NCBI RefSeq assembly: GCF_006874645.1
Contig: NZ_CP030082.1
Location: 930,001-994,000 of the forward strand
Direction: 5' to 3'
Source of the DNA: Bdellovibrio sp. ZAP7
GTDB lineage: Bacteria; Bdellovibrionota; Bdellovibrionia; Bdellovibrionales; Bdellovibrionaceae
DNA: 64,000 bases
Shown: positions 35,686 to 38,362 of the stretch, piece after piece
How positions within the stretch are numbered: position 1 is the stretch's first letter
How the letters are laid out: the number at the start of each line of letters is the position of its first letter
Position numbers and translations under genes: made by a program
Notes under the pieces: generated by a model
Database searches by the model: none
What the model saw: the letters and a program-made list of their open reading frames with translations, nothing else
What the model was told of the DNA's origin: nothing

Positions 35686-36603
35686 ATGTTTCTAACCCGA
35701 GTCCTAGAAAAAAAAGCCGTCATCCAAACTTTCGGCGCAGCTTTAGTCTTTGCTCCCATCGGTAACACTCTAGCAAAAATGTCGACTCTTGACGGTGTCT
35801 ACGGCCAATGGACATTCGAAATGTTCAAAAAAGTAATCGCTGCAGGCTCAGTTTTTAATCAAATCCTCTATGTAGCCACCATAGCCATAGGCTTTTTAAT
35901 GCTAAGAGGCTCAAAGTCCGTGTGGAAATTCGCGCTAGCGCTATTAGGTGGCTATATTGCACTTCAAGTTTCAGACTTCAAACACGTAAAATCCAGCGGC
36001 CTTACATGGACATTCTTCCTGACGAACATCGCAGTCTTCATGTTCATCGCCGATCAATTGGTGTTTAAAGTAGAAAACACGAAGCCATCTTCAAAGCCCA
36101 AAGAGAAAGCACAAGCCCAACTGGCTACGGCAAGTGCCGTAACGACCGCACCCCCAGTAGCTGCAAAAGCACAGGCCCCAAAAGCCAATGCAGGAAAAGA
36201 CGTCGTAAGGAAACTAAAACCAACAGAATTGCCAAAAACACCAGGCAAAGTAGTTGTCCTGCAGCCTAAAATTCAAGCAAAACCAAACTCAAAGCCGACC
36301 GCTACCCGCAAAATTCAAAGCATCAGAAAAAAGATTCTATTCCAATTCGAAGGTCAAAATCCTTGGGGCCAGCTAGTATCCATTTCAAGCAAGGGAATCC
36401 AAATCAAAGGCCTCAAAACGCCGCCGTCAGATATAACAGAGAAAGAAATAGATCTCTTTCTGGCGAAGGACCTAAAACTCAGAACTAAATTCACTATGAA
36501 AAACGAAGAAATCTATTTCTTCGATTACACCGCAATCTCCAGCGCACAAAAAAAAGAACTCAACCACTGGCTAAGTTCCCTACAAGATTCTAAAGCCGCA
36601 TAG
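35686..36603 (+). CDS. membrane protein with Ala/Lys/Pro linker and PilZ-like C-terminus
   Basis: 305 residues. It has about four N-terminal helices ('LYVATIAIGFLMLRGS', 'FALALLGGYIALQVSDF', 'WTFFLTNIAVFMFIADQL'), then an Ala/Lys/Pro-rich linker (about 128-215). The C-terminal 85 residues have PilZ-like features: 'IRKKILFQFEG', then 'GQLVSISSKGIQIKG', as in the strand pattern of PilZ domains. Codons such as CTA and AGA are frequent compared with neighbouring genes. A palindromic element begins 39 bases after its stop. PilZ identity is tentative. Confidence 0.65.
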   Translation: MFLTRVLEKKAVIQTFGAALVFAPIGNTLAKMSTLDGVYGQWTFEMFKKVIAAGSVFNQILYVATIAIGFLMLRGSKSVWKFALALLGGYIALQVSDFKHVKSSGLTWTFFLTNIAVFMFIADQLVFKVENTKPSSKPKEKAQAQLATASAVTTAPPVAAKAQAPKANAGKDVVRKLKPTELPKTPGKVVVLQPKIQAKPNSKPTATRKIQSIRKKILFQFEGQNPWGQLVSISSKGIQIKGLKTPPSDITEKEIDLFLAKDLKLRTKFTMKNEEIYFFDYTAISSAQKKELNHWLSSLQDSKAA

Positions 36604-36641
36604 AGCATCAATAAAATACAACGAATGAAAGTTAGTTCGCG

Positions 36642-36785
36642 TCTGTATGAAGCCAGAAGGCCATAGCCTGCTATGCAGTCGACCTCCGTCGGCGCAGGAT
36701 GCGCGAACCGGCAAAGCCGGCGACCGTGAACCACGGATGGTGTGTCGACGGAATAGCAGGCTATGGCCTTCTGGCTTCATGCAGA
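36642..36785. repeat. 144-bp palindromic element with three mini-hairpins
   Basis: Perfect 28-bp arms lie at 36647-36674 and 36753-36780, and with one mismatch they extend to 33 bp (36642-36674 and 36753-36785). Inside, GTCGAC occurs at 36678-36683 and 36744-36749. Between them are three small hairpins with 5-bp stems and 3-base loops: GCGCA-gga-TGCGC (36692-36704), CCGGC-aaa-GCCGG (36708-36720) and CCGTG-aac-CACGG (36724-36736), each separated by 3 bases. It is GC-richer than the flanking gene and sits between two converging genes. It could be a non-autonomous mobile repeat or a structured terminator. Confidence 0.9.
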
Positions 36786-36793
36786 TCCGTGAA

Positions 36794-38362
36794 CTAAGTT
36801 ACAAGAACGTCCTGAATCTTACCCAAAAGCTCCTTGCGGCGTGCTGGTTTGGTAAGAACTCCGTCACAACCAGCGTCCATACATTTTTGACCCTCTTCCT
36901 TCATCGCATGGGCAGTTAAAGCAATGATGGGTTTGGTGTAACCAGCAGCGCGGATGCGGCGAACCGTTTCGTACCCGTCCATGATAGGCATTTGAATGTC
37001 CATCAAGATCAAGTCAGGATTGTGTCCTTCCATGATTGCAATTGCCTCGAGACCATTTGCCGCCTGCAGGATTTCTGAGTGCGTGTTGCGCATGTAGCGA
37101 TCAATCAACAGGCGATTGTCACTGACGTCGTCGACCACCAGGATTTTTGCACCTTTCAAATCAACGTCTTTGCTTAAAGCTTCCACCTTTTGCTCGATGG
37201 TTTGGTTGATGACTTGAGATTTTTCCAAAAGCATCGAAACTTCAAAGAACGAACCGACATTCGGTGCAGATGAAATAAGTTTTAAATCTCCACCCATGGA
37301 TTTTGCAAGTTCACGGGAAATAACTAATCCCAAGCCTGTACCGCCGTAGCGTTTGCGAGTTGAGATATCGGCTTGGCTAAAGGGTTGGAAAAGTTTTTTG
37401 GATTCCTCTTCAGAGATACCAATACCCGTGTCACGGATTTCAAAAACCACGCGGTCGTGATGATTACGATCGGGTTGGATGTAGCAATGAATTTTAACCG
37501 AGCCTTGGGCCGTGAACTTAATTGCGTTGCCAGTGACGTTTAAAAGAATTTGCTTAATGCGCTCAAGGTCAGAGTTATAGCAAAGCCCCGGTGGATTTTT
37601 AGCGTCCACTTCAAGAGTGATGCCTTTATCAGAAGCCTTAAGACCTAAAGTCGTTGCAATATCTTTTAGCAAATCATCAAAGTTAAAAGACGCTTTCATA
37701 AAATGAAGCTGGTTCGCTTCAATTTTTGATAGATCCAAAATATCATCTATCAGACGCAGTAATAATTCTCCGTTCCGGCGGATCGCCGCCAGGGAGTCCT
37801 GCTTTTCAGCCTCGCCTAAATCTTCTTGAACCAAAACATCTGAAAAACCCAAAACCGAAGCCAGGGGCGTGCGGATTTCGTGGGACATATTGGCCAGGAA
37901 TTGAGACTTTGAAAGGTTCGCTTGTTCCGCACGTTTGCGCAGGAATTCGACCTCTTCCATCTTAGCCTTCAAAAGTTTGTTCTGGCGATCCAAGGAAATA
38001 AAAGTTTGAACTTTGGAGCGCACGATATATGGATCCAACGGTTTAAACATCAAATCCACGGCGCCACTCTCGTAGCCCTTAAAGATAATGTTTTGATCCT
38101 GCTGTTGGGCCGTTACAAAAATAATCGGCAAGTGACGAGTTTTTTGAATACCGCGAATAAATTGCGCAAGTTCAAACCCGCTCATGTCAGGCATCTGAAC
38201 ATCGAGTAATGCCAGTGCAAAATCGTGGTCTAAAAGTAACGACAATGCCTGCTCGGGCTTGTTTGCGGTAATAAGATCCAGATCATCCGCTTTGATCAAT
38301 TCGCTCAGCGCAAAGATGTTCTCGGGGTTGTCATCCACAATAAGAATCTTCGTTTTGTCCAC
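36794..38362 (-). CDS. hybrid histidine kinase, receiver-HisKA-HATPase-receiver
   Basis: 522 residues without membrane segments, so cytoplasmic. The order is: N-terminal receiver with phosphorylatable Asp54 ('LALLDVQMPDMSG'), HisKA with His161 ('NMSHEIRTPLASV'), HATPase with 'NAIKFT' and 'GGTGLGLVIS', and a second receiver with Asp455 ('LILMDIQMPIMDG'). The leading receiver would regulate kinase activity and the trailing one accept phosphate. It lies downstream of a larger hybrid kinase and CheR on the same strand, so it probably belongs to one phosphorelay with them. Confidence 0.95.
   Translation of the reverse strand: MDKTKILIVDDNPENIFALSELIKADDLDLITANKPEQALSLLLDHDFALALLDVQMPDMSGFELAQFIRGIQKTRHLPIIFVTAQQQDQNIIFKGYESGAVDLMFKPLDPYIVRSKVQTFISLDRQNKLLKAKMEEVEFLRKRAEQANLSKSQFLANMSHEIRTPLASVLGFSDVLVQEDLGEAEKQDSLAAIRRNGELLLRLIDDILDLSKIEANQLHFMKASFNFDDLLKDIATTLGLKASDKGITLEVDAKNPPGLCYNSDLERIKQILLNVTGNAIKFTAQGSVKIHCYIQPDRNHHDRVVFEIRDTGIGISEEESKKLFQPFSQADISTRKRYGGTGLGLVISRELAKSMGGDLKLISSAPNVGSFFEVSMLLEKSQVINQTIEQKVEALSKDVDLKGAKILVVDDVSDNRLLIDRYMRNTHSEILQAANGLEAIAIMEGHNPDLILMDIQMPIMDGYETVRRIRAAGYTKPIIALTAHAMKEEGQKCMDAGCDGVLTKPARRKELLGKIQDVLVT

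Follow-up and report, generated by a model that had tools for sequence, protein, structure and literature searches.

What kind of element is the long palindrome at positions 36642 to 36785 of this stretch of Bdellovibrio sp. ZAP7 DNA (64,000 nucleotides, referred to here as the window), and what keeps it paired? Its arms (36642-36683 and 36744-36785, 42 nt each) are 93% complementary and contain, as the earlier note had claimed, a perfect 28-bp run (36647-36674 with 36753-36780); no other inverted repeat in the window has arms of 20 nt or more with above 75% complementarity and a spacing below 300 nt. Its folding energy is far beyond chance, both as RNA (-119 kcal/mol, z -13.8 against shuffles) and as DNA (-73.8, z -15.4 against shuffles). 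The location between two converging genes is likewise borne out, the flanking open reading frames stopping at 36603 (+) and 36794 (-). In the window copy the right arm is not followed by a T-run, a tRNA search found nothing tRNA-like in the palindrome, and Rfam 15 gave nothing above a curated threshold, the sole match being MIR169, which scored 23.6 bits where 80 are required. The parts of the window copy are the following:

36626..36803, + strand: whole palindromic element including a weaker outer stem (self-inverted match 966626-966803, 74% identity; fold)
36647..36674, + strand: left arm, perfect 28-bp stem, its sequence unique to the window copy (arm comparison, genome search)
36753..36780, + strand: right arm, partner of 36647-36674 (arm comparison, genome search)
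36674..36754, + strand: conserved head (covariance model R1 match of 86.6 bits at G000:C1:966674-966754; family covariation)
36675..36677, + strand: GCA opposite GGA (36750-36752), a recurrent G.A / C-G / A.G step just under the head (sequence reading; recurs in the family)
36678..36683, + strand: outer head stem GTCGAC, partner 36744-36749 (4/6 pairs covary in the family)
36686..36691, + strand: inner stem CCGTCG, partner 36721-36726, with one C.C mismatch in the window copy (family alignment)
36692..36704, + strand: hairpin 1, GCGCA-GGA-TGCGC (loop ends in GA without exception among 102 distinct copies)
36708..36720, + strand: hairpin 2, CCGGC-AAA-GCCGG (stem covaries)
36730..36741, + strand: conserved hairpin 3, ACCA-CGGA-TGGT (family alignment; the hairpin at 36724-36736 is an alternative of the window copy)

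The palindrome belongs to a family. Searching its own genome (G000) with a 191-nt stretch turned up some 20 more places with a match to the core, and a covariance model (R1) built from 19 own-genome copies finds 33 scattered copies there; the absence of a second copy in any genome, which the earlier note had named as the outcome that would speak against a family, is thus not what was found. R1 finds 3-33 copies in 22 of 24 Bdellovibrio genomes and none in the other two, with weak, scattered matches elsewhere in the class and no credible copy found outside it. A head-pattern search of 84,980 genomes returned 63 stretches, and of these together with 10 viral pattern stretches the Bdellovibrio ones alone score as heads (57-92 bits; the rest at most 26). 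A phage or plasmid origin was rejected, since the phage and plasmid collections hold no match to the element and the 10 viral pattern matches fail to score as heads. A search of the openly accessible literature on Bdellovibrio repeats and hairpin RNAs found nothing on the element. It is an undescribed dispersed repeat of the genus Bdellovibrio.

All copies carry a head of ~80 nt made up of an outer stem, an inner stem and three mini-hairpins, with the consensus GYCGAC CT CCGTCG GCGCANGATGCGC GAA CCSGC AAA GCSGG CGACGG TGA GCC(A)NGGATGGC GT GTCGRC. Hairpins 1 and 2 lie within the inner stem, hairpin 3 lies beside it and the outer stem is beneath all of them; the GTCGAC pair previously noticed on either side of the core is this outer stem (36678-36683 / 36744-36749). 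The three evenly spaced mini-hairpins that had been described hold for the first two, but the proposed third, CCGTG-AAC-CACGG (36724-36736), can form only in the window copy, the inner stem of which has a C.C mismatch; the layout conserved in the family is an inner stem CCGTCG/CGACGG around hairpins 1 and 2, with ACCA-CGGA-TGGT as third hairpin. In the first 19 copies both partners have changed in 12 of the 27 pairs, and no pair has a change confined to one partner. Covariation scores 0.235, compared with 0.080 for shuffled alignments and at most 0.034 with the partner slid. In a fitted alignment of 102 distinct heads ~2,470 cells are Watson-Crick pairs as against 7 G-T and 19 A-C, and in every copy hairpins 1 and 3 have loops ending in GA. 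Also invariant in the 102 are CCT and the GA ahead of hairpin 3, and the GT behind hairpin 3 is nearly so. GGA makes up ~59% of hairpin-1 loops and ~80% of hairpin-3 loops, the remainder being CGA (42/102 copies in hairpin 1). Further copies and covariation thus support the idea of a dispersed palindromic family with compensatory stem changes.

A second hairpin repeat of ~65 nt (CAAAAATAGCAGGATGCTATTTTTG...GGGCAGGAGCCC) sits inside head loops, in the same orientation wherever checked, in L015, L022 and L103 of the own genome and in L079/L288, L277, L273, L274, L280 and L292 of other species; in the own genome 3 of its 4 copies are within heads, and elsewhere it makes up other multi-hairpin elements. 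Two low-scoring relatives of the head, arranged in divergent order, directly follow rplL (ribosomal protein L7/L12) at G000:C1:786514-786909 (L104), the second with 21-bp perfect inner arms.

Under every head stands a stem, typically 20-60 bp long and perfectly paired over as much as 37 bp, the sequence of which differs in almost every copy. When the 33 left arms were concatenated and compared with their own genome, each matched itself and most their own inverted partner, the next match having an E of 1.05; spacer-like arms, or arms copied from elsewhere, were therefore rejected, no arm matching another place in the genome. Some subfamilies do share arm motifs, e.g. CTGACTTGG / CCAAGGCAG, whose distance from the head is constant (7 loci, 10 records). 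The combination of a conserved head and an almost copy-specific stem points to a function carried by the folded form.

Comparison with the sister genome G022 shows that the stems are rewritten in place, both arms in concert. For 26 sites G022 has a copy at the orthologous place, with the same head orientation in 26/26. At the window site and at L010/L110 the two stems are largely different and near perfect in both genomes, while the flanks are 82-89% identical, and several double changes occur in other sister pairs (L003/L112, L009/L117). Within the inner 36 bp of 23 sister pairs there are 633 identical pairs and 66 double Watson-Crick changes, and the single changes there are asymmetric, with 18 G.T versus 3 A.C (p 0.0015) and 22 A.G versus 2 C.T (p 4e-5). 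Sites are common to G021 as well (~75% identity in places), and a few to more distant species, again with other stems; persistence of sites where flank identity has fallen to ~75% suggests that the element serves the host and is not purely mobile. Occasional loss also is seen, the head being deleted in two sister sites (L002 versus L182, L125 versus L185).

The ends of the element are not fixable, and the sister sites compared, which are head deletions and not clean empty sites, yielded neither a target-site duplication nor a clean insertion. Insertion of the head into pre-existing hairpins was rejected: the readable sister sites are head deletions or unclear, and a second long perfect hairpin is absent from the window. 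A recent duplication is most plausible at L092 (G022:C1:2556555 and 2557003), where two inverted copies have an almost identical 3' arm and inner 5' arm and the second of them is missing at the corresponding G000 site (L057).

According to a published report (PMC8794818), template switching can create hairpin stems and also maintain them, and it alone could keep the arms complementary. The copies might thus be relics of a selfish element that spread once and now, without function, undergo neutral decay and mechanical correction of the palindrome, and the heads deleted in L002/L182 and L125/L185 would agree with this. Such correction does not predict the A.G over C.T and G.T over A.C asymmetries, however, and the invariant head bases are kept in 102/102 copies, with copies persisting at orthologous sites of diverged species; we regard a relic as the most improbable of the explanations considered here.

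The mismatches also tell which strand is folded. Overall the stems contain 389 A.G versus 26 C.T mismatches; A.G and G.T are tolerated, C.T and A.C are not, and because A.G so far outnumbers C.T, one strand, here called "top", must be the one under constraint as the folded form. A cruciform with equal strands is contradicted by the same asymmetry. The top strand is the stabler one in 96/104 copies when folded as DNA and in 72/104 when folded as RNA. No strand bias relative to replication is evident by eye (14 versus 20, the origin position being assumed).

The G.A mismatches bear on whether this strand acts as DNA or as RNA. Those lying more than 8 bp from the head have the context 5'-RGC/5'-GAY in 155/224 cases (63/115 distinct 5-bp contexts). 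With DNA loop parameters G.A costs little and several of the observed contexts are favourable, which is not so with RNA parameters, and the rank correlation of context with loop energy is higher for DNA (rho 0.72, p 0.002) than for RNA (0.47, p 0.06). This energy argument is indirect and no more than supportive: CGC contexts are predicted to be favoured as well, which is not observed. The G.A mismatches in this outer region fall mostly at even spacings (2, 4, 6 bp), and the requirement for R in their contexts is fully explained by neither DNA nor RNA energies.

The main rival to a single-stranded DNA element is a structured RNA: transcription of the top strand would in most cases place it at the 3' end of the upstream gene's message, and the hairpins of the head, with loops resembling A-N-GGA-U, would either shield the end of the mRNA or be bound by a protein, CsrA for example. 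Constraint on one strand fits this, as does the co-orientation of the 5' neighbour in 22 of 30 own-genome copies. G.T and A.C are equal over all stem distances (116 and 108), but in the inner 30 bp G.T prevails 61 to 12, which is expected from RNA too and counts against DNA. Hairpins bound by CsrA/RsmE, of the CsrB and RsmZ type, present several A-N-GGA-like loops, as the Bdellovibrio element also does, with GGA in many loops, and CsrA is found in 60/60 relatives tested. Against this reading, CsrA also occurs in relatives that lack the element. Moreover the element differs from the CsrB/RsmZ type in that the first loop G is often C (hairpin 1 has CGA, not GGA, in 42/102), in having almost no G-U (7 in ~2,500 head cells) and in being dispersed, with 3-33 copies in a genome. 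Some copies come after a classical terminator that the upstream gene has of its own, and Rfam holds no matching family. A structured RNA is a serious but unlikely alternative. From the strand stabilities, the mismatch energies and the scarcity of wobble pairs within the head, we lean towards single-stranded DNA as the folded form.

The genomic setting raises a further possibility. Copies are intergenic, with no gene between the arms, and the right arm mostly ends near the stop codon of the 3' neighbour. By simple ORF calls, with orthologs counted separately, 70 classified copies fall between converging genes in 26 cases, are co-directional with their neighbours in 25, run against them in 12 and lie between diverging genes in 7. 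This preference for gene ends, together with the 60/104 copies that have no classical terminator nearby, would suit a transcription insulator or bidirectional terminator. But in the other 44/104 a separate classical terminator is additionally present within 320 bp, the window copy lacks a T-run, and a terminator has no need of an asymmetric head kept by conservation or of a one-strand mismatch bias; a plain terminator, one of the earlier suggestions, leaves the head unexplained. A role of this kind is accordingly improbable, if marginally less so than a selfish relic. The neighbouring genes are unrelated and without common theme, so that a regulon of one function was rejected. Copy pairs within ~650 bp are arranged divergently (- then +) in 9/9 cases (L089, L090, L091, L092, L093, L094, L063, L079, L104).

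The known repeat families resemble the element in part. Like REP/BIME/REPIN sequences it is intergenic, dispersed and palindromic, with tens of copies and paired copies in fixed relative orientation; unlike them it has a stem whose sequence is free and different from copy to copy, a multi-hairpin head of ~80 nt and no conserved GTAG tag. The REP/RAYT tag GTAG (or CGTC) at the hairpin foot was sought, and GTAG occurs in 6/104 heads, the four bases before hairpin 1 being variable stem bases. Mobilisation by RAYT was rejected, since copy number shows no correlation with how many Y1 transposase genes a genome has (17 copies versus 0 genes in G012, 28 versus 1 in G001, 0 versus 1 in each of G003 and G004). 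G000 and G022 have 10-12 Y1-type (RAYT/IS200-like) transposase genes each, a number unrelated to the element. Integron attC sites are similar in working as one folded DNA strand with variable stem sequence, whereas the Bdellovibrio element conserves its apex and not its base, lacks an R'/R'' pair and occurs as single scattered copies instead of a cassette array; the RYYYAAC / GTTRRRY end pair is present in 1/104 copies, compared with 0.16 expected from shuffled arms. MITEs too are short, non-coding and numerous, with no internal gene, but the unique arms mean that no terminal inverted repeats are shared here, and no target duplication was seen. The earlier observation and its idea of a family are thus right, and none of the families it named (REP-like, attC-like, MITE-like) fits. 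A retron or other reverse-transcriptase-made element was rejected, RVT_1 being above cut-off in only 3/24 genomes and absent from most carriers. Tested by gene presence, CsrA, RAYT and reverse transcriptase do not fit well as partners. That neither a partner protein nor a target-site duplication or clean insertion was found counts against the explanation favoured below.

The explanation that we favour, if with somewhat less than even confidence, is a non-autonomous dispersed repeat that acts as a one-strand DNA hairpin, is recognized by a putative protein and has its stem pairing renewed by template switching together with selection. When the locus becomes single-stranded, in replication, repair or uptake, the top strand would extrude the head, and a structure-specific putative protein would bind the head hairpins with their loops ending in GA. 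The stem would be needed merely as a stalk and its sequence would therefore be free. Template switching by DNA polymerase across the hairpin would renew the stem pairing, with selection on the top strand as the filter. Only now and then would a new copy be formed, the head being mobilised or spread through ectopic conversion.

A bolder claim, and one that we consider doubtful, is that these repeats form a new class of functional single-stranded DNA element, in which a conserved multi-hairpin head is carried on a stalk of free sequence, continually rewritten by template switching, and serves predatory bacteria as a chromosomal signal read by its structure through a putative reader protein. Orthologous stems differ largely yet pair, the 23 sister pairs contain 66 double changes, and wobble is nearly missing from the head; these features make the family a natural system in which to ask how a long hairpin can change its sequence and stay paired, the question raised by template switching. 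If the element does act as DNA, a structure-read single-strand signal would be added to those of bacterial chromosomes, and an undiscovered binding protein would be implied in Bdellovibrio.
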